From Lachnospiraceae bacterium (GTDB lineage: Bacteria; Bacillota; Clostridia; Lachnospirales; Lachnospiraceae), in the NCBI GenBank assembly GCA_017408025.1, contig JAFQVJ010000011.1, positions 97,363 to 161,362 on the forward strand: DNA of 64,000 nucleotides, read 5' to 3'. The notes beneath the pieces are model-generated. The model was given only the letters and a program-made list of their open reading frames with translations. It ran no database searches and had not been told where the DNA came from. Position 1 is the stretch's first letter; each line of letters starts with the position of its first letter. Below are positions 2,229 to 23,983 of this stretch, one piece after another. Both the position numbers and the translations under genes were made by a program.

Positions 2229-2773
2229 TTAGGCTTGTTTGTCCTGTTGCTCTTTTGTAAGTTCGTTATACTCTCCAATCCAAGAGTTAAACTCTCTTAG
2301 TGTCCGGCTCAACCAAAACTCTAAGCCTGTGTGTGTTTCCTTTGCCAAAAGCAGGCTATTTCTTTTAACCCATTTTGTGGGATTCTGCTTTACAATCCCA
2401 AACTTACTAAAAAATCTCTTGCCACATTTTTGATTTTTCCAAAATCTCTAATAGGCAAGTTTGCGATAACGTCACTTCCTACGCCTGCTGCCTTGGCTGC
2501 CAAGCGGTACAGGTATGCGGTTGAGATTTCCGGGGTTAATGCAAATTCGCCTACCGCCGTCATTTCGTTTTCAATGGCTACAAGGTCGTCGCCTATCAGC
2601 TTTTCAAAGTCAAATACTAATTCTGTATAGGTCTTGTCCTCGTAGGTGTAAGGCTTCTGAAACTTATGCGTATACGCTCCCTGTGGTGTGTCCGAATCGG
2701 TCACATTTGCCTTGTTTTCTGCCTTTCCCTCTGCTGCTTCCTGTGTTGCATTAGCTTTCTTAATATCTTCCAT
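2229..2773 (-). CDS. Tail assembly chaperone E+E'-like frameshift product
   Basis: A -1 shift at T TTT TTA (2408-2414) would take ribosomes out of the 127-residue frame. They would enter an overlapping open frame with no stop until TAA 2231-2229, giving about 181 residues. The added part reads like real protein (for example LEFWLSRTLREFNSWIGEY) and has no start codon with a ribosome binding site of its own. P2 E/E+E' and lambda G/GT make their tail chaperones this way, just before the tape measure gene. The heptamer, extension and position are seen; the frameshift itself is inferred from the family. Confidence 0.8.
2390..2773 (-). CDS. Tail assembly chaperone, unshifted form (P2 gpE-like)
   Basis: This is a 127-residue protein from ATG 2773 to TAA 2392. 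It lies downstream of the tail tube gene and upstream of the tape measure gene, the position of the tail chaperone in P2-, lambda- and Mu-like phages. The first 35 residues are rich in A, E, K and N and probably disordered. The rest looks like the common all-helical chaperone with a YRLAAKAAG segment. It would coat the tape measure during tube polymerisation and is absent from virions. Residues 22-29 contain VTDSDTPQ, coded by one of the five 17-bp dyads. It contains the slippery site five codons before its end. Confidence 0.75.
   Translation of the reverse strand: MEDIKKANATQEAAEGKAENKANVTDSDTPQGAYTHKFQKPYTYEDKTYTELVFDFEKLIGDDLVAIENEMTAVGEFALTPEISTAYLYRLAAKAAGVGSDVIANLPIRDFGKIKNVARDFLVSLGL
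2408..2414 (-). other. -1 frameshift slippery heptamer T TTT TTA
   Basis: The minus strand reads GAT TTT TTA in the zero frame, so the heptamer X XXY YYZ is T TTT TTA, one of the most slip-prone known. It lies just before the zero-frame stop at 2392-2390, and the -1 frame stays open for another ~60 codons. I did not identify a clear downstream pseudoknot. Confidence 0.8.
2688..2704 (-). repeat. 17-bp dyad site 1 (candidate ParB site)
   Basis: The plus strand reads GTGTCCGAATCGGTCAC, an exact match to sites 4 and 5. It lies inside the tail chaperone gene and encodes VTDSDT. See the finding on dispersed dyads. Confidence 0.6.
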
Positions 2774-2827
2774 TGTCTTAATCCTCCAAAAATGAATTTA
2801 AGCAGGAAAAAGCACGGTTGCCCGTGC

Positions 2828-3346
2828 CTATTTCCCAAGTGCCTTTCTGACCTCTGCCAAATAATCCTTACCGTTGACATAGTAAATATAATTTAACGGG
2901 TCAATTTCAAGCATTTTCTTACCGTCAATGTATGTAGCGTAATACGTTACCGCATATTCTCCGCTTACCTCCGCTGCACTTGCCGTAGCGACCTTGCCCG
3001 GGTTTAACTTCTTAGGTGTTACGGTTAAAATATGCTTAACCTTTACTACCTCTGTTTCGCCCTTTGTGGTGTCTTTCTGTTGCTGTGCTGCCCTCAAATC
3101 AATATTGTGCTGGCGTGGCTCATGCAGTTTAATAGCGTTCTTTGTAACCGTGCGGAAATTAAGGGTAAGGGTCATTGCTTCGATTGCACCCAAAATAACG
3201 GATTCAATCTTACCGCCAATGCCGGCCCCGCTGATTTCCTCGGTCATGTTTGAGATTTCCGGCAATGTTACTTCGGATAATCCCATATACTCGGTTGCGT
3301 CCTCATATACCGCAAACCCTATAACTGTTTCGTCAATCTTTGGCAT
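2828..3346 (-). CDS. Phage tail tube protein (P2 FII-like)
   Basis: This 172-residue protein begins MPKIDETVIGFAVYEDATEY and has the layout of P2 FII-type tube proteins: an opening beta strand, a central SVILGAIEAMTLTLNF strand pair, and a C-terminal domain that binds its neighbour. It would polymerise as stacked hexameric rings to form the inner tube of a contractile tail. It directly follows the sheath gene with a 16-base gap and its own ribosome binding site, the normal FI-FII order. Length fits the family. Confidence 0.85.
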   Translation of the reverse strand: MPKIDETVIGFAVYEDATEYMGLSEVTLPEISNMTEEISGAGIGGKIESVILGAIEAMTLTLNFRTVTKNAIKLHEPRQHNIDLRAAQQQKDTTKGETEVVKVKHILTVTPKKLNPGKVATASAAEVSGEYAVTYYATYIDGKKMLEIDPLNYIYYVNGKDYLAEVRKALGK

Positions 3347-3362
3347 TTGCTCTTACCTCCTG

Positions 3363-4829
3363 TTATGCTGCGAATAAGTTTGAAAGGTAACTTACATCGT
3401 ATTCAACGACAAAATCAAGTTCCTTTGCAGGACTTGGCGGGGTAAGGTAAATATGGAATTTCGCTTTGCCTGCCATTAAGTCCGTTTCCGTGTTCTCGGC
3501 TTCCAAAAACTCAATACGTCCGCCTAAAATCTTGCCGTCCGCCATAAGTCCGTTAAGCCAAATATTAAGACTATCTACCACGGATTCAATCAAGCGTCTG
3601 TTTAACTTGCGGTCAACCTTGCTCCATACGGATAAGATAACGGAATTTGCAACCCAATTAAACATACGGGATACACAATAGAAATAATCTGTCACGTCCG
3701 TATTTGCAGGATAGCAAGCCGTTTCGTTGCCCCAAGAAACAAAACCGCCGATAAAGTTGAGTGCGGTAATGATACCGTTAGCATTTAAGTAGTTTGCCTT
3801 TGTAAGGTCTAACAATACCTCCGTGCCGTCCTCTAATACCATGCTATCAATCTGCAAACTCTTGTTACTTGCAGATTCGCACGGTGTACCACCGCCCAAA
3901 TCTTCGTTAGCGTCCGTTTTAGCCATAACCCCGGCTTGATGTACTGACGCATGGTATACCTTGCCACCAAGGGAATACTTGGGCCACATAAGCAACTGTG
4001 ACGGCTGCGTAATGTTGTTTTTATTCTTCCACTCCACGGCTTCGGTATAGGTCTTTGCTTCTGTTGTGTCAACGTCAACAAGTGCCTTTCCTGTAAATAA
4101 TCCGTTGATATTCTCCGCTTTGGCTGACATAACCGCTGCCACTTCGCTATCATGCGAAAAGTTCGGTGCAAGGAAAAGCGTAGGAATTACACGGAATTTC
4201 GGGAAAATAGAATCCGTCAACTCAAAACCGCTTGATTTCTTGGTGCTTACGTCATAACCGCCGATAATATCAGCTTTTGTTACCTTTGTAGGGTCTACGG
4301 CATTGTAAGTTACGTTAAGTGTTGCGTTTTCGGACGTAATCTTGCCACCCTCGATACGTTCCAATCTCAAAACGCCGTCCGTATACATAAGGTCGTAATC
4401 TTCGCCCCTTGTATACTCTTCTGTCAATGCTTCCTCTCCGTCATAACCCTTAACTTTTACCGTGTCCGCCAATGCTTCAAGCGGTAAGTCTAATACATTG
4501 CCTGCCAACTGCTTATCTGCGGTCGTTTCGCCTGCAAGGTGCTTTTTAGGGTCAAGAACATTAACCATAACGACCGGACCGTTAGAGTACAACTGAAAAC
4601 TTGCGTAAATCTCTTCGCAAATATCGTAATTCTTCCAATCCTCGCTATATCCCATTGCTGCTACTGCTTCCGGGTAAGAGGAAGCGTATACAGGCTCGTT
4701 TACTTTTCCGCCTACCATGTGTACCGGGGCAGTACCTACGATAAAATGGATACTGCTATCTGCGGTTGTAGGTGTGGATACGCTTGTAGCCTGTTTGCCT
4801 GCTTTCGCTCCGTGAAAAAAATCACTCAT
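3363..4829 (-). CDS. Phage contractile tail sheath protein (P2 FI-like)
   Basis: A 488-residue sheath protein shows that this phage had a contractile tail (myovirus). Seen: an N-terminal arm, the opening SSIHFIVGTAPVHM, a variable middle domain of about residues 130-190, and a conserved C-terminal part with FVSWGNETACYP, YFYCVSRMFNWVANSVI and the final LDFVVEYDVSYLSNLF. The C-terminal region forms the interlocking arms of the sheath. It lies first in the tail block before tube, chaperone and tape measure. The start has a GGAGGATAAGTTAAA leader. Its length is typical. Confidence 0.92.
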   Translation of the reverse strand: MSDFFHGAKAGKQATSVSTPTTADSSIHFIVGTAPVHMVGGKVNEPVYASSYPEAVAAMGYSEDWKNYDICEEIYASFQLYSNGPVVMVNVLDPKKHLAGETTADKQLAGNVLDLPLEALADTVKVKGYDGEEALTEEYTRGEDYDLMYTDGVLRLERIEGGKITSENATLNVTYNAVDPTKVTKADIIGGYDVSTKKSSGFELTDSIFPKFRVIPTLFLAPNFSHDSEVAAVMSAKAENINGLFTGKALVDVDTTEAKTYTEAVEWKNKNNITQPSQLLMWPKYSLGGKVYHASVHQAGVMAKTDANEDLGGGTPCESASNKSLQIDSMVLEDGTEVLLDLTKANYLNANGIITALNFIGGFVSWGNETACYPANTDVTDYFYCVSRMFNWVANSVILSVWSKVDRKLNRRLIESVVDSLNIWLNGLMADGKILGGRIEFLEAENTETDLMAGKAKFHIYLTPPSPAKELDFVVEYDVSYLSNLFAA

Positions 4830-4851
4830 TTTAACTTATCCTCCTTGTCTT

Positions 4852-5202
4852 TTACTTTCTTGACAGGCTCAAAACGTCATTGTAATACTTATTCAGTATT
4901 GTACCTGTCTTTTTTACTTTTGCCTTACTCTCTGCAAGGCTCTTTGTTGCCACAATAAGTAATCTTACCTGTGGAATCTTATCTAAAGTGTCCTTTAAAT
5001 GCTCTTCCACGGCTTCCCTGGTCCCGGTAAAAATGGTGTTTGCCACTAATCCCGTGCCTGTGGTCGGTCCGATATAAATAAATCTACCCTCTGTGGCTTC
5101 CGTATTTGCCGTTTCCTGCGTTTTTTCTGCTTCGGGTGTGGAATTTACCACCTCTGCATTTTCAACCGCATTTTCGGCGGTTTTGGTTGTTTTCCCTGCC
5201 AT
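4852..5202 (-). CDS. Phage protein between head-tail joining genes and sheath, unknown
   Basis: This 116-residue protein has a disordered, Ala/Glu/Thr-rich first 38 residues, then GRFIYIGPTTGTGLVANTIF and a helical KIPQVRLLIVATKSLAESK segment. The FIYIGPT stretch and the position just before the sheath match small conserved proteins of P2/Mu-like contractile-tail phages whose role is not known. It would be co-transcribed with the sheath gene (23-base gap). No catalytic motif was seen. Confidence 0.7.
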   Translation of the reverse strand: MAGKTTKTAENAVENAEVVNSTPEAEKTQETANTEATEGRFIYIGPTTGTGLVANTIFTGTREAVEEHLKDTLDKIPQVRLLIVATKSLAESKAKVKKTGTILNKYYNDVLSLSRK

Positions 5203-5215
5203 ATACGGCTACCTC

Positions 5216-5689
5216 CTATTCTAAATATTGTCGTACATCTCTTTCCGGCTTCGTCATTTCCCAAACGGTCATCATTTCGCCCACTTGGTAAACCTCCAAA
5301 TCGTCATCATAAATAACGGTTTCTATCGGTTTCTGACAGGAATAGCGTTTGTCTATAACAACGTCCTCTAATAGCTTCGTTTCAATCTTCGTAAGCACAT
5401 TTAGGCATTGTATATAATTCTCCTGCTTATCCTCCGAAAAGGTCACGCAAATAATACGCACCCTGCATACACTCTCTTCCTCGTCCGTTTTCTTGGTAAG
5501 AAGTTTTAAGAGTATATAGGGTGCTGCCTTTTTCTCTGCTTCCTTGTCCGGCAGATTGCCAATAAATACCTTGGGCGGTCGTTCTCCTGCTTCCGTGCCA
5601 TTCTCCGGCACTCTTGCAACCAACCGCATATCCTTAGTTATTCCCTCGCAATAGCTTTTCAAAGAAGTTAATAGGTCTAATGGTGTCAT
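5216..5689 (-). CDS. Putative tail terminator/completion protein
   Basis: This 157-residue protein lies between the minor-tail-Z-like gene and the sheath gene. That is where lambda gpU-like tail terminators and P2 gpR/gpS-like completion proteins are found. It mixes helices and strands (PYILLKLLTKKTDEEESVCRVRIICVTF and VGEMMTVWEM), compatible with a terminator fold. The assignment is by position and size, not by a diagnostic motif. It starts at ATG 5689, two bases after the preceding stop. Confidence 0.6.
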   Translation of the reverse strand: MTPLDLLTSLKSYCEGITKDMRLVARVPENGTEAGERPPKVFIGNLPDKEAEKKAAPYILLKLLTKKTDEEESVCRVRIICVTFSEDKQENYIQCLNVLTKIETKLLEDVVIDKRYSCQKPIETVIYDDDLEVYQVGEMMTVWEMTKPERDVRQYLE

Positions 5690-5691
5690 TT

Positions 5692-6258
5692 TTAACCCTC
5701 GCTATTAAACAATCTTTCTATTTCGTGTTCGATTCTTCGGTTTAATACCTCGTTTACTTTGTCTGTTACTGCTTGTATAACCTCTTCATTCTCGGTTATT
5801 TTCGGTGTTGACGGTCCGTACAGTTCTTTAATTTTTCCTGTATCTTCTCTCTTGAAAATACCTATATGTCCGCTACCCATTTGCTGAACGAATACGTCTT
5901 TCTTTCGGTCGAATTTTACGGGACTATTTGCCTTTTTTACTACTGCACTTGGCGTTTTCCTGCTAGGCGTTTTAGGACTTACATTGTACTTTATCAGCGG
6001 TATCGGATTTCCTGCAAAAGAAATAGTGCCTATTATTTCATCTTCTCCGTGTTCCTCGCTTTGGTACTGTATGTATGTATTTTTCTTGTATTCGCCCGGC
6101 TTAATATGGTACGTTTCAACCGCTTTTCTTTTTGCTTCTGTTTTGCCTGCTTGTAAGGCTCTACCAAATGCAGGCTTTAGTACCTTTCCTCTTGCATTTT
6201 CTACCCTCGCAAGTACCGTATGCAGTTTTTCTATTGTTTCGTCCGATACTTCAATCAT
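5692..6258 (-). CDS. Minor tail protein Z-like (tail completion)
   Basis: This 188-residue protein resembles lambda gpZ / minor tail protein Z. It has an N-terminal helix around KPAFGRALQAGKTEAKRKA, a central strand region with GEDEIIGTISFAGNPIPLIKY, and a C-terminal helix VNEVLNRRIEHEIERLF typical of the family. The family helps finish the tail and join it to the head. The ATG overlaps the last base of the preceding gene, suggesting translational coupling. Head-to-tail position supports the call. Confidence 0.75.
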   Translation of the reverse strand: MIEVSDETIEKLHTVLARVENARGKVLKPAFGRALQAGKTEAKRKAVETYHIKPGEYKKNTYIQYQSEEHGEDEIIGTISFAGNPIPLIKYNVSPKTPSRKTPSAVVKKANSPVKFDRKKDVFVQQMGSGHIGIFKREDTGKIKELYGPSTPKITENEEVIQAVTDKVNEVLNRRIEHEIERLFNSEG

Positions 6259-6596
6259 TATTCGTCAAACCTCTCTAAGTCTATGATTAACTCGTTGTAC
6301 TCATTTAGCACGTTGGCAATCGTGTAAAGGTTGTTGTCAATCCAAAACCTCGCCCCCTGCCTTGGCTCGCTCCCTAAGTCGCTTAGTCTGACCCGGATAA
6401 CAATAAATCTCCCATAAATACCCTCTGCATGGTCGGACCCTATGCCGTTACGGTCTTTGGTTTCCTCGGAATCAAGCACAACGGGAATATCCTTTGATAC
6501 CCCGTCATACTTAATTTTCCTTACCTGTGCAAATTCGTTAGTATTGTAAAAGGTCGTTTCCAAGTCCTTATCAAGCATTTCCTTAAAGTTTTTCAT
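6258..6596 (-). CDS. Head-tail joining protein (lambda FII-like)
   Basis: A 112-residue protein directly after the major capsid gene, where lambda-like phages keep their FI/FII head completion genes. Beta-rich segments such as YGRFIVIRVRLSDLG and QGARFWIDNNLYTIANVLNEY match the small barrel expected of an FII-type joiner, which forms the platform to which the tail attaches. It starts at ATG 6596 and ends with a one-base overlap with the Z-like gene. The family call rests on position, size and general shape. Confidence 0.65.
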   Translation of the reverse strand: MKNFKEMLDKDLETTFYNTNEFAQVRKIKYDGVSKDIPVVLDSEETKDRNGIGSDHAEGIYGRFIVIRVRLSDLGSEPRQGARFWIDNNLYTIANVLNEYNELIIDLERFDE

Positions 6597-6608
6597 AGGC
6601 TACACCGC

Positions 6609-7664
6609 CTAGCAAACTTCGGCAATGTACCAAGAATCTACCTCATGCGGTACACAAAGAGGTGCTGCGGACAACTGTAAAAATCTTCTTGCCGGGCGTC
6701 TTTCTACCCACTGTTCCGGGATTCTGCTACCCTCTGCAACCGCAATAGTCTTTCCTGCTTCGTCCACGATAGCAACCGCACCATAATACATAGAGTAGTT
6801 AGCTTCTGTGGATAACAGGGCAACCACGTTAGCAGGAAGTAAAGGCTTATCCTCCGGCTTGTCCTTGTTAGTCCAGTTATCAAGATACCATTCGTTGTAA
6901 GTGTAAATATCCATGCCTAACTCATGGATAGTACCAACGTAGGTAGCACCGTTAGGAAGTTCTTTAGGTGCGATAACTGCAACCTCAAAACGTCTAACGT
7001 CAAGTACACTCTGTACCTCTTCGTCAGATAAGAACGCTTCCAATGCGTCCGCACCCATAAGGCATACATTACAGTTTACAAAACCTGTTTTCTGTACCTG
7101 TTTTCTCCAAGCCTTTAACTGCTTGATTTTTCCGCCCTGTGTCTTAGTCCACTTTTCAGCGTCCTTTAAGGTTGTTTTGTTGCTAAACTTAAAGTCAATT
7201 TCCGCCTGCAACTCCTTACCGTCCTTATCAAGGATAGGGATTTTACCTGTAAATAACGCCTGACAACACATCCACTCTTCACGGCGTGTAATCATTTCGT
7301 CCAACTCGGTAAAATCACGCTGCATTTTCTCAACGGCTCTCTGATTAGGGGATTTTCCGTTGTAAAGGCTCTCGCCCGGGGAACGCTTCAAAATATCGTC
7401 CACCGTAGTAATCTTGTTAGGTGCTACTAAAGGTGGCTCGTAGGTGTTGGTTTCATAACCTAAGTTATCTACCGTTACACCGCCGATTTTCTTATGTACG
7501 AAAGGTGCTAACGCCCTGTTGCCTTTCTTAAAATCTACATCAATCTTCTGTGTGTCGAATGTTTCCACATTGCGGAAAAAAGTATCCTTGATAAAGGTAT
7601 GCACTCTCGGCATACGCTCTACTAATTTACCCATTGTTCTAGGGTCGTAAATACTAATAGCCAT
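6609..7664 (-). CDS. Major capsid protein, gpE family (HK97 fold)
   Basis: This 351-residue protein carries the N-terminal signature of the lambda gpE capsid family: FIKDTFFRNVETFDTQKIDVD followed by KKGNRALAPFV at about residues 24-57. Later segments such as REEWMCCQALFTGKIPI and FRKQ-type helices are also typical. It forms the icosahedral shell through the HK97 fold. The gene follows a decoration protein gene and a ClpP-type protease gene, the lambda C-D-E order. It has no long propeptide, which agrees with the lambda arrangement, where a separate scaffold lies in the protease gene. Confidence 0.92.
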   Translation of the reverse strand: MAISIYDPRTMGKLVERMPRVHTFIKDTFFRNVETFDTQKIDVDFKKGNRALAPFVHKKIGGVTVDNLGYETNTYEPPLVAPNKITTVDDILKRSPGESLYNGKSPNQRAVEKMQRDFTELDEMITRREEWMCCQALFTGKIPILDKDGKELQAEIDFKFSNKTTLKDAEKWTKTQGGKIKQLKAWRKQVQKTGFVNCNVCLMGADALEAFLSDEEVQSVLDVRRFEVAVIAPKELPNGATYVGTIHELGMDIYTYNEWYLDNWTNKDKPEDKPLLPANVVALLSTEANYSMYYGAVAIVDEAGKTIAVAEGSRIPEQWVERRPARRFLQLSAAPLCVPHEVDSWYIAEVC

Positions 7665-7688
7665 GTTGTACTATCTCCTTTTCTTTTC

Positions 7689-8057
7689 TTATTCTGTTGC
7701 TTCCGCTACGGCATTATCGGTATCAACCAAGAAAATACCCAACTTGCGGAAAGGTGCTTTAAAATCTGCTGCGGTAGTTCCTGCGGGTACTTCGATAGCT
7801 TCCCCGAAAAACTGTCCTGTAAGGTAAATTACTACCTCTTCGCCTGCTTCGGCGTTCTCTGCTGCCAAACCGTAAACGTCTGCCACGTTATCCGCCGTAA
7901 CGGCTTTTAATGTGCCGTCTGCGTTAAGCACTACGGGCATAAGTTCTACGATAGTTTCGCCCTCTGCTACTGTGCCCGAATCGGTCACTACGGGATAATC
8001 CCCGGCGTGTACCATTTTAGGGGTGTAAGTTCCTAAATTCTCTTTGCCTGCTGCCAT
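7689..8057 (-). CDS. Head decoration protein (gpD-like)
   Basis: This 122-residue protein between the protease and the capsid gene is the gpD decoration protein by position, size and a beta-rich sequence (AGDYPVVTDSGTV, GETIVELMPVVL, GEEVVIYLTGQFF). gpD trimers stabilise the expanded head against DNA pressure. Residues near 21-26 (VTDSGT) are coded by the second 17-bp dyad, with a single base change. The AAGGAAATGGC leader supports the start. Confidence 0.8.
   Translation of the reverse strand: MAAGKENLGTYTPKMVHAGDYPVVTDSGTVAEGETIVELMPVVLNADGTLKAVTADNVADVYGLAAENAEAGEEVVIYLTGQFFGEAIEVPAGTTAADFKAPFRKLGIFLVDTDNAVAEATE
7972..7988 (-). repeat. 17-bp dyad site 2 (candidate ParB site)
   Basis: GTGCCCGAATCGGTCAC on the plus strand differs from sites 1, 4 and 5 at one position. 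That position is one of the two variable positions that sit symmetrically about the dyad axis. It lies inside the decoration protein gene. Confidence 0.55.
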
Positions 8058-8076
8058 TTCCTTTTACCTCCTGTAA

Positions 8077-10825: not shown

Positions 10826-10885
10826 AACGCCGTTATCTCCTTTCTGTGCTACAAAATCCTGATTCTGTGCCACGATTTCCATACA

Positions 10886-10930: not shown

Positions 10931-10931
10931 T

Positions 10932-15245: not shown

Positions 15246-15584
15246 TTATGGCGGTCTGTATTTTTCCTGCCATTTGATATTTGCTTTTGCCTGTCTTGGC
15301 TTTCCTGCCTTAATACTGCTGCCGTGCCGTGTCCTCCTGCCTATGCAGGATTCGCAAATATCCTCTTTCTCTACCGCCAATACCTCCAAAATCCTTTCTG
15401 AAAGGTCTTTTAAGGTTTCCCATGCGTCCGAAAGGGTTTGCAATAATACGCTTAGTCTATCGCACGTTGTTACTATATCTTCCCCCATGCAGAGGGATAG
15501 CGTTTTAATGTTTTCTGTGTCCGAATCGGACAACGCCACCCCTCCAAGGGTTATTTTATCCTCCCATACTATCAGTTTATCCAT
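15246..15584 (-). CDS. Small phage protein of unknown function
   Basis: A 112-residue protein with no recognised domain, in line with the ParB gene (10-base gap). It has a helical middle (RLSVLLQTLSDAWETLKDLSERILEVLAVE), a CESC pair and a basic C-terminus. Residues near 18-24 (LSDSDTE) are coded by the third dyad site. Function not known. Confidence 0.65.
   Translation of the reverse strand: MDKLIVWEDKITLGGVALSDSDTENIKTLSLCMGEDIVTTCDRLSVLLQTLSDAWETLKDLSERILEVLAVEKEDICESCIGRRTRHGSSIKAGKPRQAKANIKWQEKYRPP
15517..15533 (-). repeat. 17-bp dyad site 3 (most symmetric copy)
   Basis: GTGTCCGAATCGGACAA on the plus strand contains a perfect 7-bp dyad, TGTCCGA-A-TCGGACA. It differs from sites 1, 4 and 5 at a variable inner position and at the last base. 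It lies inside the 112-residue gene next to parB. Confidence 0.55.
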
Positions 15585-15594
15585 AAGCTACCGC

Positions 15595-17190
15595 CTAACC
15601 CTGTAAATAGGCTTGGTATTCTTTGGTTTTCTCCATTACCCATACAGAAACGGCGTTTGTAATCCTGCTTTCCCATTCTTTCGGGCAGATATTGTTATTT
15701 TCTTCCGCCTGTAAAAGAATAGTATCCCTTACAACCTTTTGTATCATGTTGTACTGTGCTACTCCGTACTTGGCTTGCAAATACTTTGTAAAATCTAATC
15801 CTTTTTCGGCAGGCTCGGGTACATATTCCGGGTAATCACTCATATCCTGCTGCCCCGGCAGTTCCTCGTTATCCTCTTCCTCGGTGTCTACTGCTGCCAT
15901 AGGTGCATTTACAGGCTCATTCATAAAACCGCTTTCCTGTGTGGCTTCTCCTGTTTCCGTGTCGGTATTTTCTACCCCTTCCGGCGTATCATCATAAGCC
16001 AACATATCATTTTCAATCATTAACGCCACGATTTCCGCAAGGTCTGTATAGGCAATCAAGTAATTTTTCCAATTTTCGTCTATCAAGGTCATTCCCTCGG
16101 TGGAAAATCTGTAAATAAAGTGCTTTCCGCCCTCTAACTCTACCTTTGAGCCGTTAAATGATTTCTCAAAATGCTTTCTCAATGCCTTTTCAATGCCTGC
16201 GGTATCCTTTGCTTTAAATACTGCCCTGTTTGCTTCGCCCTTTAAAGCGTGTGTGATTGCTAATTGTGCCTGCTCTGCCTGTTCGTCCGTGATTTCCTCT
16301 TTTTGTTCCTGCTTCACGTCCTTAATGTGCAATTCTCCCTTATCCTCGTACTGCTTATAGGCGTTTGCCTGGTCCTCTTCGCTCAATCGGCTTAATTCGT
16401 GGGCGGTAGAAATACCGATATTGCCCTTTTCTAACTCCTGCTTAAATTCCGGGGATAAATTATTGTCTATTGCTTCCATTCTGCCAATCTGTGTAGTGGA
16501 CGTATTGAGGTATTCCGCCACAATTTCACGAATACGGCCCATTTTCTCCCTTTCGTAGCAAGGGCAATTAACGCCTTTTGCTTCCAAGTATGTAGCCTTG
16601 TCCTCTTCACTCATTCCCTCGCACTCGCAACCGTCTACGCAACGGAATTTACAACCTCGGCAGTAATCCCCGGCTTTGATTGCTTCTTTAATCTCGGTAT
16701 CAAGTGCTTTCTTATACTCGGTAAGGATTTCTTTTAATTCCTTTGCCTGCTGCACCTTTTCCCAATCGCTTAACTGTCTTGCGGTGGCATTTGTGAGAAT
16801 AAGGCTTAACTTATCCCTTATAGCGTCTGATTCCGTTTCAATGCGACAAGGTACATATCTGTACTCTTCCTTACCCTCTGCTATCAGCTTCAAACTTGCC
16901 AATCTACGGCGGTGTCCTGCGATAACCTCATACTTGCCGTGTGCTTCCGGCTTAACTACCAAATTCTGCTTGATACCGCCTAATAATTCGATAGCGTCCG
17001 CCAAATCGTTAATATCTTCGGTTGTATAGAAATTGTCTTTGCTCGGCATTAAATCCTCTGCGTCAATCATCACAATATCAAAGGTGCTTTCCTGTTTCTC
17101 TGCCGGTCCCTCTGCCTGTGTATTCTTTTCGGGTACTGCTGCCCCTTTGCTCTTTCCGTTCAATAAGTCATTAAGGTTAAATCCTGCCAT
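15595..17190 (-). CDS. parB: ParB-like partition protein with Cys-rich insertion
   Basis: This 531-residue protein has a ParB N-terminal CTPase domain (MIDAEDLMPSKDNF at 41-54; AGHRRRLASL at 91-100, the GERRxRA-type box), then a helix-turn-helix region (QIGRMEAIDNNLSPEF, GNIGISTAHELSRL, about 234-272). Between them is a segment with seven cysteines (177, 180, 184, 188, 190, 209, 211) that ordinary ParB lacks and that could bind zinc or iron-sulfur. The acidic linker after 400 and a C-terminal helical domain complete it. ParB loads on palindromic centromere sites and is moved by ParA. The ParA gene lies 1.1 kb upstream with four small genes between. It could also be a nucleoid-binding ParB-like regulator. 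Confidence 0.88.
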   Translation of the reverse strand: MAGFNLNDLLNGKSKGAAVPEKNTQAEGPAEKQESTFDIVMIDAEDLMPSKDNFYTTEDINDLADAIELLGGIKQNLVVKPEAHGKYEVIAGHRRRLASLKLIAEGKEEYRYVPCRIETESDAIRDKLSLILTNATARQLSDWEKVQQAKELKEILTEYKKALDTEIKEAIKAGDYCRGCKFRCVDGCECEGMSEEDKATYLEAKGVNCPCYEREKMGRIREIVAEYLNTSTTQIGRMEAIDNNLSPEFKQELEKGNIGISTAHELSRLSEEDQANAYKQYEDKGELHIKDVKQEQKEEITDEQAEQAQLAITHALKGEANRAVFKAKDTAGIEKALRKHFEKSFNGSKVELEGGKHFIYRFSTEGMTLIDENWKNYLIAYTDLAEIVALMIENDMLAYDDTPEGVENTDTETGEATQESGFMNEPVNAPMAAVDTEEEDNEELPGQQDMSDYPEYVPEPAEKGLDFTKYLQAKYGVAQYNMIQKVVRDTILLQAEENNNICPKEWESRITNAVSVWVMEKTKEYQAYLQG

Positions 17191-17554: not shown

Positions 17555-17739
17555 TTTCTTTTACCTCTCTTTCTCGGTATGCAACCCTCGCAATCCTCGG
17601 TATCCCTTAATTTGCTGATTTTGCAACCGCCTGTATGCTGATACGCCTTTGTAATGTGCTTACTGCAATTTGTATTATCACATCTGCTATCGCAAAACAT
17701 AGGGTAATTGTCTGTATTGATAAAAATGATTCCTCCCAT
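17551..17739 (-). CDS. Small Cys-rich phage protein
   Basis: A 62-residue protein with seven cysteines (CDSRCDNTNC, GGCKISKL, DCEGCIP) and a basic tail, probably metal-binding. It shares ATGA-type overlaps with both neighbours. Function unknown. Confidence 0.6.
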   Translation of the reverse strand: MGGIIFINTDNYPMFCDSRCDNTNCSKHITKAYQHTGGCKISKLRDTEDCEGCIPRKRGKRK

Positions 17740-18017
17740 TATCTCCTACCTCCTGCTACCCTGCGATTTACAAAGGCGGGTATCTGTATTTCTCTTTGCG
17801 GTTTAGTGTCCGAATCGGTCACAATGCCTTTAATCTGCTGCATTAACACGCCTGCTACTTCCTCTACCGCCTTGCGTCTGCTTAACTCTTCCGCTGCCTG
17901 CTTTAATTCTGTTTGCAATCTGAAATTTTCCGCTATGATTGCGTTGTATTTCTCCACGGATATATTGATATAGTTACTTCCCTGTGTTCCAAACTCCTTT
18001 ACTGCTAAATTTGACAT
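17739..18017 (-). CDS. Small coiled-coil phage protein
   Basis: This 92-residue protein has ISVEKYNAIIAENFRLQTELKQ leading a short coiled coil, then VLMQQIKGIVTDSDTK, where VTDSDT is coded by dyad site 4. The pattern (hydrophobic strand, then coiled coil) resembles the 125-residue neighbour, so the two may be related. Function unknown. Confidence 0.65.
   Translation of the reverse strand: MSNLAVKEFGTQGSNYINISVEKYNAIIAENFRLQTELKQAAEELSRRKAVEEVAGVLMQQIKGIVTDSDTKPQREIQIPAFVNRRVAGGRR
17806..17822 (-). repeat. 17-bp dyad site 4 (candidate ParB site)
   Basis: GTGTCCGAATCGGTCAC on the plus strand, an exact match to sites 1 and 5. It lies between parA and parB, inside a small gene. Confidence 0.65.
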
Positions 18018-18053
18018 ACTCGCTACCTCCTGCTTATGATATTTTACTTTGCA

Positions 18054-18269
18054 CTATCTGTACTCTTTTCCTGTTTCTTTATCCCTTAGAACGATACGCC
18101 CTACCAACTCAAACCCTGCAAGGCTTATAATCTGCTTTAACATTGTGATAAGGCTTGTTACTGCTGCGTTACGCTCTCTTGCTTCCTGTCTTTCCTCCTT
18201 GGCAACCGCTCCTAATGCTTCGCCTGCCGTTGGGTCGGGATAACCCTCTTTGTTTCTGTAACCTCCCAT
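18054..18269 (-). CDS. Small phage protein directly after parA
   Basis: A 71-residue protein with a Glu/Arg-rich helix (AKEERQEARERNAAVTSLI) and a strand-rich end (FELVGRIVLRDKETGKEY). It starts one base after the parA stop. It may be the small partner gene often found in par operons, but there is no sequence proof. Confidence 0.6.
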   Translation of the reverse strand: MGGYRNKEGYPDPTAGEALGAVAKEERQEARERNAAVTSLITMLKQIISLAGFELVGRIVLRDKETGKEYR

Positions 18270-18270
18270 G

Positions 18271-19023
18271 CTATACCTCCAAATACTCTTTTACAAACGC
18301 CTTATAATCTCTAGCGGCCCCGGAACGTGGGGAATACTCCATAAGGCTTTCATTGGTAAATGTTACTTCGTCCGCTTTCTCTGTTCTGCGGATATGTGTT
18401 TTAAATACCGGGTAACGCTGATTCTGTAACCACTCTTCGCCCTGTCTGCATACATCACGGTTATAGAACATAGTCACAAGGCAACCCCTAAATTTTAATT
18501 TCGGGTTAAGCTGCTTTGCATTGTTTATCTGCTCTTCCAATTCGTCCATACCGTCAAAGGCGTATCCGTCAATCTTAATCGGTATAATAACTTCGTCTGC
18601 TGCCACAAGTGCATTGATAACCGATATATTTATATCCGGCGGACAATCAATAATACAGTAATCGTAATTATCCTTTACCCTCTCCAATTCCTTAGAAAGT
18701 ATTGTTGCCTGGTCCCTCTCTTCGTCCTTGATAACCATTAAATTAGCGGTCAAAAGGTGCATATTGGCAGGAATCGCATATAATCTCTCGGTCGCCGTTT
18801 CCTGCGTTACCTCTTCTATTGCCTGCTGCCCTGTCAGAATATCCGCAAGGCTCGGATTGTCGTAACTCCATACACCGCAAGCCTTGGATAAATTACCCTG
18901 CTTGTCGTTATCAATCACTAAAACCCTTTTGCCGTAATCTGTGGCTAAGATATGAGCCATATTGACCGTTGTTGTTGTTTTGGCACAACCGCCTTTCATG
19001 TTGATAATTGCTATTGTTTTCAT
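18271..19023 (-). CDS. parA: ParA-type partition ATPase
   Basis: This 250-residue protein is a Walker-type ParA. KGGCAKTT (residues 10-17) is the deviant Walker A with its signature lysine, VLVIDNDKQGNLS the A' region, and CIIDCPPDINIS the Walker B region. ParA binds DNA nonspecifically with ATP and is released by ParB, which moves replicon copies apart. It has no N-terminal HTH, so it is unlikely to repress its own operon in the manner of P1 ParA. The gene overlaps the preceding 90-residue gene by 4 bases. Confidence 0.93.
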   Translation of the reverse strand: MKTIAIINMKGGCAKTTTTVNMAHILATDYGKRVLVIDNDKQGNLSKACGVWSYDNPSLADILTGQQAIEEVTQETATERLYAIPANMHLLTANLMVIKDEERDQATILSKELERVKDNYDYCIIDCPPDINISVINALVAADEVIIPIKIDGYAFDGMDELEEQINNAKQLNPKLKFRGCLVTMFYNRDVCRQGEEWLQNQRYPVFKTHIRRTEKADEVTFTNESLMEYSPRSGAARDYKAFVKEYLEV

Positions 19024-19292: not shown

Positions 19293-19510
19293 ACCGTTTT
19301 ACCTCTATCAATCGGCTTTCCGCACTCGGGGCAGAAGTTTAAGGGTCTTGCCTTAAATCCTAAATGCCCTCTCCTGCGATTCTGCTTGTCGTATGTGCGT
19401 ATCACAATCTGCACTTTGGCTACTTTTGTCATTCCCAACGGCTTTTCCGCATTTCCCTTAAAAATCTCTGCGTTTTCCTCAATCTCTCTACACGTCTTGC
19501 ATTTCTTCAA
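19280..19510 (-). CDS. Small zinc-ribbon phage protein
   Basis: The protein starts at TTG 19510, which has AAAGGAGG 8 bases upstream, and has 76 residues. A CKTC pair near the start and CPECGKPIDRG near the end suggest a small zinc-binding domain. Function unknown. An upstream extension to 19552 is open but has no ribosome binding site. Confidence 0.65.
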   Translation of the reverse strand: MKKCKTCREIEENAEIFKGNAEKPLGMTKVAKVQIVIRTYDKQNRRRGHLGFKARPLNFCPECGKPIDRGKTVWQI

Positions 19511-19668
19511 GGCTCTTTCCTCCTTTGGTGTGCGTCTGCACACTTTATACAATCTCTAAGGCTTTAGGCACTCTATAAAGTGTGCAATAGCCTTTCTGTG
19601 GGTGGACTTCTTGGCATTAAATCCACCGCCTTTCTCGGCATTTGTGATAGACGTTGCAATTTTTCACA

Positions 19669-19854
19669 TTAAAAAAGTGCTAAAAACTTGTTGACCGACC
19701 GTACACGCTCTGGTATGGTGTACCCACCGCTATTTTTCCATTCTATCCCTGCTACGGCTATTGGCTTGCCCTCGTCAGAAAACAGGTTGCCGTCCTGTCT
19801 TGACGGCTCGGGGCGGTTGCCCCTGCCGTTTCGGCTATTTGCCGTTATGAAATT
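19669..19854 (-). other. Open frame without standard start in a 280-base gap
   Basis: Between the genes at 19280-19510 and 19835-20083, one minus frame is open from 19854 to TAA 19671-19669. It reads like protein (PSRQDGNLFSDEGKPIAVAG, EWKNSGGYTIPERVRSVNKF) but has no ATG, GTG or TTG start. It could be an extension of the upstream gene by frameshift near 19840, a gene with an AUA start, or a gene decayed at its 5' end. The AT-rich segment 19560-19670 shows no other coding. Confidence 0.3.
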
Positions 19855-20083
19855 CTATTTTCCAATCATCAACCTGTATAAACGGGATTTTTAAATATCC
19901 GTTGTCCGACCATACAGGAAGTTCCACCTTGCAACCAAAGTCTATTAAAATTCCTGCTAATGTGCTTGCACTTCCGTAATTTGTATGATTTCTATTATTG
20001 TCTTTCTGCTCTGCATAATCGTTTACATTGCTTGCACTTCTGTAAAGGTCTACTTTCAATTTTTCGATGTATAAATTATTCAT
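19835..20083 (-). CDS. Small phage protein behind the palindrome-controlled promoter
   Basis: An 82-residue protein starting MNNLYIEKLKVDLYRSASN, with strands GCKVELPVWSD and FIQVDDWKIEF. It is the first gene after the promoter at 20121-20149 and so heads the block leading into parA/parB. GGAGGTAATCGGTT precedes the ATG. No family recognised. Confidence 0.65.
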   Translation of the reverse strand: MNNLYIEKLKVDLYRSASNVNDYAEQKDNNRNHTNYGSASTLAGILIDFGCKVELPVWSDNGYLKIPFIQVDDWKIEFHNGK

Positions 20084-20120
20084 AACCGATTACCTCCGTT
20101 TGCTTTCCTTTGATGATTCT

Positions 20121-20149
20121 ATTATATACTTGTGCAAGTATAAAAGCAA
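20121..20149 (-). promoter_or_regulatory. Promoter with operator between -35 and -10
   Basis: On the minus strand TTGCTT (20149-20144) and TATAAT (20126-20121) are 17 bases apart. The palindrome TATACTTGCACAAGTATA fills the spacer, so a bound protein would block RNA polymerase. It points toward the 82-residue gene and the par block. Confidence 0.75.
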
Positions 20150-20223
20150 CCCGGGATAATTAACAAATATACTTGCATAAGTATATAATTTCTTTGTGCA
20201 TTTTGTATACTTGCACAAGTATT
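20125..20223. repeat. Three palindromic operators TATACTT-N4-AAGTATA
   Basis: Copies at 20125-20142 (TATACTTGTGCAAGTATA), 20168-20185 (TATACTTGCATAAGTATA) and 20206-20223 (TATACTTGCACAAGTATT) are spaced 43 and 38 bases apart. Equal arms and constant 4-base centres show a dimeric DNA-binding protein site. A fourth copy lies in the rep leader at 26617-26634. Confidence 0.8.
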
Positions 20224-20528
20224 TAATCCTGATTATGTGCTACAATCTTCTTTGCTTCCAATTCCTGCCGTTTTTCTTTCAAATACTGCATATATTCGCC
20301 GTAGGTCATGCCCGGCGGTACTATCTTCTGTTGTATCTGCCTTGCCTGCTGCACCTTACGGCTTAATACTGCTGCCTTGGTTTCCCTCTTGGGCGTTTCC
20401 TGCTTCGGTGGCTCTACCGCCACTATCCCTAACCGCCTTGCCTGTCTGTTCGGCTTTGTGGTATTGTATGTAATCCTGTTATCCTGCTTAAATGGTATTA
20501 CCTTGCGTTTGCTTTTCTTCTTTCCCAT
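20223..20528 (-). CDS. Small basic phage protein
   Basis: This ~101-residue protein starts at ATG 20528 (MGKKKSKRKVIPFKQDNR), preceded by GAAAGGGGCGG. It is very basic with a Gln-rich helix (RKVQQARQIQQKI) and ends PGMTYGEYMQYLKEKRQELE. Nucleic acid binding is plausible. It overlaps the preceding zinc-ribbon gene by about 40 bases. Confidence 0.65.
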   Translation of the reverse strand: MGKKKSKRKVIPFKQDNRITYNTTKPNRQARRLGIVAVEPPKQETPKRETKAAVLSRKVQQARQIQQKIVPPGMTYGEYMQYLKEKRQELEAKKIVAHNQD

Positions 20529-20742
20529 GCTTACCGCCCCTTTCCAATTCGTCCGCAATCTCTATAAGGCTTTCCATGCACTCCCTTATATTGCCGTCCG
20601 TTCCTGCCGTAATGCTTAAAATACTACTTATCTGCTTTAATCTCTTGATATGTTCGGGGGTAACTGCTGCCCGTTGTAAGCACTCCGGGCAGATTTCTAC
20701 AACCTCCAAGGCTTTTTTACCGCATACATGGCATTTACTCAT
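20488..20742 (-). CDS. Small zinc-ribbon phage protein
   Basis: An 84-residue protein with CHVCGKKALEVVEICPEC at the N-terminus, a clear two-CxxC zinc knuckle, then helices (RLKQISSILSITAG, ECMESLIEIADELER). The start ATG 20742 has GGAGTG upstream. Function unknown. Confidence 0.65.
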   Translation of the reverse strand: MSKCHVCGKKALEVVEICPECLQRAAVTPEHIKRLKQISSILSITAGTDGNIRECMESLIEIADELERGGKHGKEEKQTQGNTI

Positions 20743-20941
20743 TTTTTCTATCACTCCAAATTCTTTTTACTTCCTGCCACGTCAAAATAAATAACGCCGT
20801 GTATCCTATATTCGCATTTAAAACATAATGCACAAAACCGATAATAAGCATAAGCACAACGGCAATTACAAACGGTGTCAGCTTTTCTTTTACCCAAAAC
20901 TTAAATACCGCCTTATAAAAGGCTTTCGTTTTCTCTTTCAC
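20735..20941 (-). CDS. Small membrane protein of the prophage
   Basis: A 68-residue protein starting at GTG 20941 with GGAGGT 5 bases upstream. One or two hydrophobic segments are seen (PFVIAVVLMLIIGFVHYVL and GYTALFILTW). It lies between the methyltransferase and the zinc-ribbon gene. Function unknown. Confidence 0.65.
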   Translation of the reverse strand: MKEKTKAFYKAVFKFWVKEKLTPFVIAVVLMLIIGFVHYVLNANIGYTALFILTWQEVKRIWSDRKNE

Positions 20942-22523
20942 TCGCTACCTCCAACAATCCTAATACGTCTAAAATGCCTAAATAGACCCTTTCCGCACAA
21001 AATACGCATATACTGTTGCCTATTGCCCTATAACGTGCCGTATCGGCTATTTCCGTGCCGTCTGCACCGTATTTAGTCCAATTATCCGGGTATCCCTGTA
21101 ACCTCTCGCACTCAACCGGGGTTAATCGGCGTATGATGTATATTATTTTCTGTACGGCTTTCTTTAAAATGTCCTTTATGCTCTTAGGCTTGTTAGGGAT
21201 ACTCTCCTTTGTCCTGTGGCTCTCGGTTACTATGGTTTCCGACCCTCCGCCGTAAGACCCCCCCGCTGCCCTCAAAGTGCCGTTAATCTCCGTTTCACGG
21301 TATCCGCCGTGTTGGTTTTCCTCAAAGGCTCTTTTATCGGTGCTTACCACTAAAGGCGTATCCCCTCTAATGGTGCTATTTTGGTCTGTCGTGAGTGTTC
21401 CGCTTGTTTGGCTCTCCCTGTATCCGTGGTGTTGGTAGGCTTCATAGAATACGCTATGTACGTCCGCCGTGGTAAGTGTCGGGCATGGTCCCCCAACCTC
21501 TCCAACGCCTAATCCGTTGCTTGCCTTATTCCGGGTCACTTCATCACGCAAAGGTATAACGCTTTTCTTTTCGATAAATACCGCTTCTTTTCCGCCTGTC
21601 ATAAGGGTAGGTGCTTGACCGTCTTTAAATCCTAATCCTTTGCCCTCTCCGCCTTGGTTATATACAAATCCTGCTGCCGTTCTTTCTTCGTGCATTACGC
21701 AAGGAATCTGACCGCCTGCACTTCCCATATTCTGTAACAGGGTAGGGGTTTTGTCCTCAAACGTCCTTACCACGCTATCAGCGTGTGCAAAATCAAGACC
21801 TAAAACCTCCCCCCCTCGGCTACTTTCTGCTCTAAGGCTATTCGTAGGTTGTCCGGCAGCGTCCGCCCTTTCGCCTTTGCTCTTCGGAGTATACCCAAGC
21901 AGGCTTTCGGACTTAAATAATATTTCTGCTGCACGTTGTCCTCCAAAATCTCCGACAAGGTAGATTCTCTTTCTACGTTGGGGTACTCCCCAAAATTGAG
22001 CGTCAAGCACTCTCCATGCTGCGTCAACTGCCCCCCCTCTAACCATTCCTGCGGTTGCCCATTTACCACTTGCAGGCATTGGAATATCGGTTTTTGTGAT
22101 TTTTTCAAGCACGGTTCTAAAATCTTCTCCGTCTGCTGATGAAAAAGCACCGGGTACGTTCTCCCAAATAATGAAAGTTGGATATTTTCCATTTGTTGCT
22201 AACCTCATTTCCTCTATAATTCTGATTGCTTCCAAGAATAACCCGGACCGGTTGCCCTCTAGTCCTTTTCGTTGTCCTGCTATGCTTAAATCTTGGCAAG
22301 GACTACCGAAAGTGATTATATCCACGGGTTGTATTTCGTCGCCTTTAAGTTCCGTTACGCTTCCAACGTGCATAACGTCCTTAAATCGGTATCGTGTAAT
22401 ATCTATGCAACTTGGCTCTATCTCGGCGGCCCAAATAGGCTTTATCTTGCCTGTAAGCTGTGCTGCATAGCAGAAACCGCCGATACCGTCAAATAGGCTT
22501 CCTAATGTCAATTCTGCTGCCAC
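20913..22523 (-). CDS. C5-cytosine DNA methyltransferase
   Basis: The 536-residue enzyme transfers a methyl group from S-adenosylmethionine to C5 of cytosine. Motif I (LFDGIGGFCYA), motif IV with catalytic Cys76 (GSPCQDLS), motif VI (IIWENVPGAF), motif VIII (PQRRKRIYLVGDF) and the C-terminal RRLTPVECERLQGYP and RAIGNSICV are all present. The target recognition region of about 230-450 has repeated Thr/Gly-rich segments, perhaps more than one recognition module. No cognate restriction nuclease was seen, so it likely protects phage DNA. Start is GTG 22523 after GAAAGGAGCGG. Three runs of seven G lie in the gene (21248-21267, 21809-21817 and 22031-22037 regions). Confidence 0.93.
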   Translation of the reverse strand: MAAELTLGSLFDGIGGFCYAAQLTGKIKPIWAAEIEPSCIDITRYRFKDVMHVGSVTELKGDEIQPVDIITFGSPCQDLSIAGQRKGLEGNRSGLFLEAIRIIEEMRLATNGKYPTFIIWENVPGAFSSADGEDFRTVLEKITKTDIPMPASGKWATAGMVRGGAVDAAWRVLDAQFWGVPQRRKRIYLVGDFGGQRAAEILFKSESLLGYTPKSKGERADAAGQPTNSLRAESSRGGEVLGLDFAHADSVVRTFEDKTPTLLQNMGSAGGQIPCVMHEERTAAGFVYNQGGEGKGLGFKDGQAPTLMTGGKEAVFIEKKSVIPLRDEVTRNKASNGLGVGEVGGPCPTLTTADVHSVFYEAYQHHGYRESQTSGTLTTDQNSTIRGDTPLVVSTDKRAFEENQHGGYRETEINGTLRAAGGSYGGGSETIVTESHRTKESIPNKPKSIKDILKKAVQKIIYIIRRLTPVECERLQGYPDNWTKYGADGTEIADTARYRAIGNSICVFCAERVYLGILDVLGLLEVASERENESLL

Positions 22524-22524
22524 G

Positions 22525-22743
22525 TTACCGCTCCTTTCTTCGTTTTCGTTGCTTCTTTTCTTCCTGCTCTTTCCTGTATCTTTCCAAATACTCTAACTGC
22601 TCTTTGTCCTCTTCCTCTTTGTAGTATTTCCACGCTTCGGATTGTGTAGCTTTGTCTATTGCCCGGACATACAGGACGGATACAGGCACAACGCAAATTA
22701 TTATGATTAAGATAATTGCTATTGTATTTGTCATTCCTGCCAA
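22525..22743 (-). CDS. Small membrane-anchored phage protein
   Basis: A 72-residue protein with one N-terminal membrane helix (IAIILIIIICVVPVSVLYV) and a long charged cytoplasmic helix rich in E, K and R. It starts with a 13-base overlap with the preceding gene. Function unknown. Confidence 0.65.
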   Translation of the reverse strand: MAGMTNTIAIILIIIICVVPVSVLYVRAIDKATQSEAWKYYKEEEDKEQLEYLERYRKEQEEKKQRKRRKER

Positions 22744-23024
22744 TCCTCCATTTTTAAAATCCTCTGCCTTTGGTTTTCTATGGTCTGCTTCATTTCCTCA
22801 ATCTGATAAGGCAATACGTCCGCATTTTCAAACATATAAAGGACTTCGACCGCCCGGGCAACCTCTACGCCTGCTTTAAGCCTTGGCTTTTTCGTTTTCG
22901 GGTCAATCTCTGTAAGCCTGCGGTTTTTAGGTTTCTTTTTTTTCTTTGACGGTCCAGGCATTGCCTTTTTCATCATGCCGTAATACGGTATCTCTGCCCC
23001 TAAGATTCTGCCGATTCCTGCCAT
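22731..23024 (-). CDS. Small basic phage protein
   Basis: A 97-residue protein with a strongly basic centre (PSKKKKKPKNRRLTEID) and a C-terminal helix (QIEEMKQTIENQRQRILKME). It overlaps both neighbours. No domain recognised. Confidence 0.6.
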   Translation of the reverse strand: MAGIGRILGAEIPYYGMMKKAMPGPSKKKKKPKNRRLTEIDPKTKKPRLKAGVEVARAVEVLYMFENADVLPYQIEEMKQTIENQRQRILKMEDWQE

Positions 23025-23356
23025 TGTGTGTTATCCTCCGCCTGCTGCCCTGCCGTATCCTCTGCCTGTAACTTCTCCCAAAGAATCGGCAATAAAATTT
23101 TAGGTGCTGACATCATGTGTGCTATGGTCGGTGCTTCTACGATACGGTCGCACATTTGTATATATACCTCTGCTGCCGTGGCGGTTTTAATCCAATCCGG
23201 CGTTTTGCTTATGGATTGCTTGTATATATGCGATTCCTTGTATTTCTCCGCCAATTCCTTAATGATTTCTTTTGCACGGTCTGAAAAATCGACCTTTCCG
23301 CCCTCTTCAATTTCCGCAATCTCTAGCAACTCTATAACTAAGTCCTTTTCGCTCAT
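23000..23356 (-). CDS. Small helical phage protein
   Basis: A 118-residue, mostly helical protein (DRAKEIIKELAEKYKES, AAEVYIQMCDRIVEA, HMMSAPKILLPILWEKL). It overlaps the next gene by 25 bases and follows the RecU-like gene by 3 bases. Function unknown. Confidence 0.6.
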   Translation of the reverse strand: MSEKDLVIELLEIAEIEEGGKVDFSDRAKEIIKELAEKYKESHIYKQSISKTPDWIKTATAAEVYIQMCDRIVEAPTIAHMMSAPKILLPILWEKLQAEDTAGQQAEDNTQWQESAES

Positions 23357-23359
23357 TTT

Positions 23360-23983
23360 CTACCTCCATACCCATACTTCTTTAATGTTTTGTAAAAAGT
23401 GTACCGCTCCGTCAAACTTTACCTTGTATTCCTCTATGTCCTCCGGCTTTAAATACTGCCTGCCGTACATTTCTTTCATATCACGCCACACATTCCACGG
23501 AATAAAGAAAAAATCGTCCTGTATGCAGATACAAACGCCACACAACGCCCCGAATCTGTTATGTGCTTCCAATACGTCCATTTGCGTATCCGTCAATACA
23601 TTTCTTTGTATTCTGTCTTGGGTTGTCCTCTTGGCTTCAAATACAATCGACCGACCGCCGTATAAGGTCCCTTGAAAGTCGGGTTGTGCGTGTTTGCTGA
23701 AACGGCCCGTAAATTCTCCTGTTTTATGATTTTTCTTTGTTACACGGAACGGCTCGGGTGTTTTATCTATCACGGCTATATTGTGTTGCTCGTACATTTT
23801 GCACCCGGCTAATATCTCATTTTCAAAATGTTGTCCTTGGGCGTTATTCATGCGGTTTTTGTACTGCCGTTTTAACTGTTCTTCGTCTATCGGGTTATTT
23901 CTCGCCTGCTGCCACGCCTGCAACTCTCTATCCGTGTCCGAATCGGTCACAAACCCTTGATTTATCGCACTTCGCATTAACAA
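23360..23983 (-). CDS. RecU-like Holliday junction resolvase
   Basis: This 207-residue protein resembles RecU/PD-(D/E)xK resolvases: GQHFENEILAGCKMYEQ at about 50-66, QPDFQGTLYGGRSIVFEAKRT with the D and ExK nuclease residues (about 97-117), and TDTQMDVLEAHNRFGALCGVCICI. Phages use it to resolve branched DNA before packaging. N-terminal residues 12-17 (VTDSDT) are coded by dyad site 5. Overlaps the ASCH gene by 7 bases. Confidence 0.82.
   Translation of the reverse strand: MLMRSAINQGFVTDSDTDRELQAWQQARNNPIDEEQLKRQYKNRMNNAQGQHFENEILAGCKMYEQHNIAVIDKTPEPFRVTKKNHKTGEFTGRFSKHAQPDFQGTLYGGRSIVFEAKRTTQDRIQRNVLTDTQMDVLEAHNRFGALCGVCICIQDDFFFIPWNVWRDMKEMYGRQYLKPEDIEEYKVKFDGAVHFLQNIKEVWVWR
23934..23950 (-). 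repeat. 17-bp dyad site 5 (candidate ParB site)
   Basis: GTGTCCGAATCGGTCAC on the plus strand, an exact match to sites 1 and 4. It lies near the start of the RecU-like gene. Confidence 0.6.

Follow-up and report, generated by a model that had tools for sequence, protein, structure and literature searches.

A 17-bp inverted repeat that recurs across a prophage of a gut bacterium of the Lachnospiraceae is very likely the parS site of the phage's own dimeric ParB/Noc-type protein, and about eight such sites would together make up a dispersed centromere. The repeat came to attention in the window, by which we mean the whole 64,000-nucleotide stretch of contig C48 that was analysed (C48:97363-161362), taken from a genome (G000) of 2.35 Mb in 71 contigs that is 91% complete. 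The prophage is an element of about 47 kb, at about C48:80575-127757, with its right end near window position 30395 (ends inferred by comparison with the related G282 prophage). Our best reading of the sequences is that it encodes a ParABS system whose parS sites form a new 17-bp family, GTGTYM-N5-KRACAC, and whose centromere is dispersed and lies mostly within genes. From the sequences we expect with high confidence that the dyad is bound by ParB, and by analogy with known systems a role in partition is probable.

The original prediction described five copies of the repeat in the window, inside coding genes that are unrelated to one another, and took them for dimeric DNA-binding sites of a ParB encoded by the prophage rather than for a protein motif. 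All five are where it placed them and carry the changes that it gave: the 17-mer GTGTCCGAATCGGTCAC is exact at 2688, 17806 and 23934 and differs by one base at 7972 and by two at 15517, against a chance expectation of 0.04 matches in the window at up to three mismatches. The genes that hold them were confirmed as those of a tail assembly chaperone, a head decoration protein, a RecU-like protein and two small proteins (Table 1), and the inner bases that vary, positions 4 and 14 of 17, do occupy mirror positions. In the whole of G000, a degenerate 16-mer has six copies, all on C48 (none for the reversed control), and at up to two mismatches there are eight, all within C48:81796-121312 (four for the reversed control). 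The eight are spread over 39.5 kb of the prophage, three of them left of the window, and at this threshold none lies elsewhere in G000, in keeping with the claim that the host part is free of copies. Six are gene-internal, five in genes of the window and one in a 371-aa gene to its left, and all six encode V/L-T/S-D-S-D/G-T in the same frame, as had been noted for the window copies. The remaining two both read GTGTCCGAATCGGTCTA; the TAG of one (C48:83504) is the stop codon of a 376-aa minus-strand frame, and the other (C48:81796) ends merely a 16-codon frame and is therefore intergenic. Among genomes of the family the dyad was found in 7 of 299, a count that is uninformative alone because the reversed control pattern matched more genomes; the clustering on one contig is what is telling.

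Conservation of these sites is at the level of DNA. Codons were compared in four site-bearing genes and their relatives at 55-95% identity (36 relatives over the four genes, after 71 matches had been dropped because they fell outside the identity range, did not cover the site or were duplicates). Where the residue was the same, the codon was identical in 172 of 173 cases within the sites, versus 2719 of 4222 (64%) in the rest of the genes. The site at 2688 in the chaperone gene is kept in the four relatives compared (19/19 same-residue codons identical), that at 7972 in the decoration gene shows 83 of 84 identical in 17 relatives, and that at 23934 in recU shows 61 of 61 in 13 relatives. The C variant at 7972 is itself kept in relatives. 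Since synonymous codons are kept at the sites, the DNA is conserved beyond the peptide, which settles the choice between DNA and peptide in favour of the former. Most more distant homologues have neither the site nor the peptide. The sites at 15517 and 17806, by comparison, were found in near-identical relatives only, and most less close relatives have a site at -40 to -82 of parB; sites thus turn over near parB, and those in the decoration, recU and chaperone genes are kept.

The association with ParB was approached from the protein side, using as queries peptide patterns from a ParB alignment (A2) of ten members, drawn from the window and from motif-bearing loci. This gave 101 ParB loci, 59 viral and 42 from bacterial genomes, picked solely by protein match; the set found from the DNA side shares some of the viral contigs, and some phages occur in both collections. 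Counting a site as near parB when at least 12 of 14 positions matched between -150 and +120 of the parB start, we found a dyad in 79 of the 101 loci, mostly at -32 to -59. Fifty permuted palindromes gave near-start dyads in a mean of 0.06 loci and a maximum of 1. The proportion persisted when the ParBs were clustered at 90% identity (49/65), and sites matching at least 13 of 14 positions numbered 104 in the 101 loci, the 50 permuted palindromes averaging 0.16 and never exceeding 3. The dyad or a symmetric variant of it occurs somewhere in the locus stretch in 97 of the 101, so relatives that keep ParB also keep the dyad, as the original prediction required. Named hosts include Lachnospiraceae, Roseburia, Petralouisia, Tepidibacter, Sporomusa, Pelosinus, Paenibacillus, Clostridium and Clostridioides.

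The reverse search, from the dyad to its companion genes, led to the same proteins. A scan of IMG/VR for GTGNCCGANTCGGNCAC gave at least 120 stretches, and 70 prophage proteins were compared with these and with stretches from related genomes, some of them overlapping. The best-matched proteins across the dyad loci were ParA (32 loci) and ParB (30), the next being found in 20. ParA or ParB was present in the locus stretch for 26 of 93 loci with an A or T at the centre of the dyad versus 1 of 27 with G or C, which served as an internal control. Whole-record searches found ParB in 12 of 50 dyad records whose listed locus had shown none; for two of the 12 (L047 and L055) a different locus on the record had already shown it, and the 50 include L013, which has ParA only at its listed locus. 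Many dyad loci have a copy 32-36 bases ahead of parB or 45-60 bases into the gene. On other viral contigs (L014:1032-1207, L050:6755-6819 and L064:1891-1931) similar dyads are packed into tight arrays, with geometries such as five dyads within 176 bp or a 24-bp spacing that are more operator- or iteron-like.

Variants of the site change in both halves at once. Nine loci lacked a recognised site near parB, and in these the span from -1100 to +2200 was scanned for perfect palindromes of 16-18 bases. In three of them, of Sporomusa type, the sole palindrome was GTGTTCAATTTGAACAC, at the usual place by parB; a fourth Sporomusa-type locus has it as well, the four loci representing two distinct ParBs. 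Another of the nine, L195, has GTGTCCAAATTGGACAC at -443, and the other five contain no perfect palindrome of 16-18 bases in the span scanned. A divergent ParB clade carries GTGTCAGAATCTGACAC inside parB, up to four times, and its recognition helix reads QIAIYNTI, with Ile in place of the usual Arg as in QIGRMEAI. Matched changes in the two half-sites point to a dimeric protein, and they lend support to the view of the repeat as a dimeric DNA-binding site. Loci of the divergent clade (L208, L209 and L251) have four GTGTCAG-type dyads in parB and none elsewhere in the locus stretch, an arrangement that is clustered rather than dispersed.

Dispersion itself is shared by relatives. Whole-genome scans of 26 relatives at up to one mismatch gave a match in 22. 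Among the matches listed for the closest relatives, a single contig carries most of the sites, at intervals of about 8, 5.4, 9 and 6-8 kb, and other contigs have a few isolated ones. One genome (G368) has 22 matches among those listed, mostly GC-rich near-matches over many contigs; its A/T-centre sites (two exact, one with a single mismatch) lie on C8, the contig that has parB. Of the seven dyads in three stretches of the G282 prophage, five agree at all 14 fixed positions and two belong to the ...TCTA kind. Sites are spaced more evenly than if placed at random (P about 0.03 in this phage and 0.004-0.07 in five relatives), which is suggestive only, because the relatives share site positions and are not independent. 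The complete genome of the Flavonifractor phage Cormatin (35,440 bp) contains six perfect 17-bp palindromes, four of which are GTGTCC-N5-GGACAC: one lies 48 bases into parB and three are dispersed at +5.0, +7.1 and +13.2 kb. Of the four, three read V-S-x-x-D-T in the frame of an annotated gene, and the fourth falls in another frame. Cormatin's ParB gene (product WAK79880.1) directly follows parA and is annotated as hypothetical, and its annotated genes include no integrase. Cormatin is one of 13 induced prophages reported for a mouse consortium, with F. plautii as its host (PMC10197239).

That the prophage encodes both ParA and ParB, as had been proposed, holds. The 250-aa ParA is a Walker-type ATPase, and the 531-aa ParB has a ParB_N domain and a helix-turn-helix region, TSTTQIGRMEAI, which was placed by eye in alignments. 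Against solved structures, the ParB family profile matched Noc, ParB and Spo0J (best 9.4e-13), the top matches being Noc. Sequence features of a ParABS system of the small-ParA, HTH-ParB kind are found together: ParA is encoded next to ParB, ParB combines ParB_N with a helix-turn-helix on domain and profile matches (the helix-turn-helix by eye), and an inverted-repeat site lies at or near the par operon. In this phage parA and parB are separated by four small genes; in other loci where both were found they are close together, and in Cormatin they abut. An N-terminal motif, FNLNxLLN, is conserved in ParB alignments A2 and A3 and may be a peptide that contacts ParA, not a membrane helix.

ParB proteins in general act as dimers that load at their sites, close as CTP-dependent clamps and spread into flanking DNA. 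By analogy, ParB dimers of this phage would load at each dyad, clamp with CTP and spread into the DNA on either side, and with sites about 2-9 kb apart the whole phage genome of about 47 kb might be coated or folded into one partition complex, which ParA would then move. Partition would matter when the phage DNA is extrachromosomal, whether plasmid-like or replicating. Because most sites are in coding DNA, they are mostly held in the frame for a polar, linker-like V-T/S-D/E-S-D-T. Among 207 distinct A/T-centre sites, 169 fall within frames 100 aa or longer, where the frame V-x-x-S-x-T accounts for 123 and the other two for 25 and 21 (counts that ignore relatedness); in our reading the favoured frame is tolerated because the peptide is a polar linker.

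Several observations weigh against a ParB-parS partition system. Four of the 101 ParB loci (L168, L204, L211 and L212) have no recognisable site in the locus stretch, and no such palindrome occurs in the 6.6 kb analysed of a Clostridioides plasmid that encodes a ParB of 28% identity. No ParB was found in 38 of the 50 dyad records searched whole, many of which are fragments, with some chance matches to be expected. ParB of the window falls 0.1 bit short of the Pfam ParB_N cut-off (26.2 bits, 8.1e-6; cut-off 26.3), and the usual site directly before parB is absent in this phage, the nearest being at -632 and +1657 (from the near-identical L057). Finally, the need for partition is not obvious, because the prophage is integrated.

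The last of these points gives room to an alternative that we consider possible though doubtful: in integrated phages, ParB and its dispersed parS sites may serve not, or not only, plasmid partition but act as an organiser of the phage genome. Clamps every few kilobases would coat the prophage or its replicating copies and fold them into one domain, in the service of excision, silencing, replication or packaging, with parS written into structural genes mostly in a frame that yields a harmless linker. Likewise possible though doubtful is the related proposal that the ParB-bound sites serve regulation or nucleoid organisation in the manner of Noc or VirB, ParB relatives that are not known to partition DNA; here the clamps would silence, de-silence or fold the integrated prophage. 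Consistent with such a role, the prophage sits within a chromosomal contig, Noc gives the best solved-structure matches of the ParB profile, and the sites extend across late and replication genes. It fits less well with the closeness of parA to parB, or with the conserved FNLNxLLN motif if that is a contact for ParA.

A role for the dyads as operators of a phage repressor, dispersed like stoperators along the direction of transcription, is improbable. All eight copies face one way with respect to the minus-strand genes, and close dyad pairs occur on some other contigs (L042 and L046), as such a role might lead one to expect. The orientation is uninformative, however, because almost every prophage gene has the same direction and the sites of many relatives are symmetric. 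Phage stoperators are asymmetric repressor sites, whereas the sites here are near-perfect dyads, and those of relatives are often perfect palindromes with no orientation at all. It is very improbable that the dyad is the recognition site of an IS30-like transposase, a 60-aa HTH_38 protein or a C5 methyltransferase: this prophage encodes all three, yet in the dyad loci relatives of the transposase were found in 2 and of the methyltransferase in 9, versus 32 for ParA and 30 for ParB (the HTH_38 protein was outside the comparison). The stoperator, transposase and methyltransferase explanations are all weakened because parA and parB are the neighbours that most often accompany the dyad across divergent phages. 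Least credible of all, and rejected as the main cause because synonymous codons are kept at the sites, is conservation of a shared peptide, VTDSDT, at the protein level: for all that the six coding copies and most coding A/T-centre sites use one frame, 46 of the 169 are in other frames, one copy of the prophage lies in no gene and another runs over a stop codon, and Asp and Glu alternate with the free centre base.

The partition genes, the dyads and other genes of the prophage are collected in Table 1. Prophage genes are almost all on the minus strand and include one for a replication initiation protein. An IS30-family transposase (NCBIfam transpos_IS30, 239 bits) is encoded at the left end, and the prophage may integrate by an enzyme of this type, given the transposase and the ends that it has in common with the G282 prophage. 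At the right end, the 60-aa HTH_38 protein shows similarity to the N-terminal, DNA-binding portion of the transposase (32% over 50 aa to the G282 copy) and is possibly, from its sequence, a transposase-derived repressor.

Table 1. Dyad copies, par genes and other genes of the prophage (positions in the window, with starts on contig C48 for the dyads).
Feature	Window position	C48 start	Strand	Description
Dyad	-15566	81796
Dyad	-13858	83504
Dyad	-6183	91179
Dyad (putative parS)	2688..2704	100050		in tail assembly chaperone gene 2390-2773(-); encodes VTDSDT
Dyad GTGCCCGAATCGGTCAC	7972..7988	105334		in head decoration gene 7689-8057(-); encodes VTDSGT
Dyad GTGTCCGAATCGGACAA	15517..15533	112879		near 5' end of 112-aa gene 15246-15584(-), just downstream of parB
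parB	15595..17190		-	531 aa; ParB_N domain; N-terminal motif FNLNDLLN
Dyad	17806..17822	115168		in 92-aa gene 17739-18017(-); 632 bases upstream of parB (distance from L057)
71-aa gene after parA	18054..18269		-	phrog_6568
parA	18271..19023		-	250 aa; AAA_31 4.6e-51; PHROG ParA-like partition protein 8.7e-62
C5 cytosine methyltransferase gene	20913-22523		-	early region; Pfam DNA_methylase 9.9e-48
Dyad	23934..23950	121296		in recU-like gene 23360-23983(-); encodes VTDSDT
Radical SAM gene	24792-25775		-	between replication initiator and exonuclease genes; PHROG 9298
HTH_38 protein gene	30067-30249		-	60 aa

Searches of open-licence PMC papers showed no prior report of this site sequence, of the ParB clade and phages that go with it, or of sites embedded in structural genes, all of which appear to be new. 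In that collection a letter search found GTGTCCGAATCGGACAC in no paper, none of the five papers with both GTGTCCGA and 'parb' is on phage partition by its title, and the listings of topic searches showed no report of the dyad site. What emerges is a candidate parS family of new sequence, together with the ParB clade likely to recognise it, found from the DNA side and the protein side alike, and the paired variants of site and helix are material for studies of ParB-parS specificity. The sites also exemplify how essential coding sequence, with one frame markedly preferred, can accommodate a DNA element that is needed at intervals. The question of why prophages that are integrated have partition genes becomes testable in Cormatin, the inducible phage of Flavonifractor plautii YL31.

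N15 is a precedent for dispersed phage centromeres: a temperate phage that has genes of the ParA/ParB type and several inverted-repeat sites at scattered positions. Sites are scattered in this way here too, eight over 39.5 kb and four in Cormatin, with ParB as their expected ligand. From N15, whose prophage is a linear plasmid with a protelomerase, this phage differs in lying in the chromosome beside an IS30-like transposase, in a host of another phylum, and in having a different, odd 17-bp dyad with sites in several late genes. Noc is the best profile match among solved structures and has dispersed single sites (NBS), as proposed for this ParB, yet it has no known ParA partner and the NBS sequence differs. 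The chromosomal ParABS of Firmicutes (Spo0J/Soj) likewise combines a small ParA, a ParB with ParB_N and helix-turn-helix, and several parS sites; its consensus, as given in PMC10197239, is TGTTTCACGTGAAACA, a 16-bp even dyad, whereas the phage site, GTGTYM-N5-KRACAC, has 17 bp and one central base. Phage-borne parABS is also described for the mycobacteriophages RedRock and Miko, and RedRock is reported to have two parS loci, each of eight direct repeats of an 8-bp motif, and no integrase gene (PMC7157519), in contrast to the single dyads scattered over the genome in this phage. In its possible mode of integration, the phage resembles the Faecalibacterium phage Lagaffe, a large gut prophage for which IS30-type integration is reported, with an IS30-family transposase as integrase (PMC5883640).

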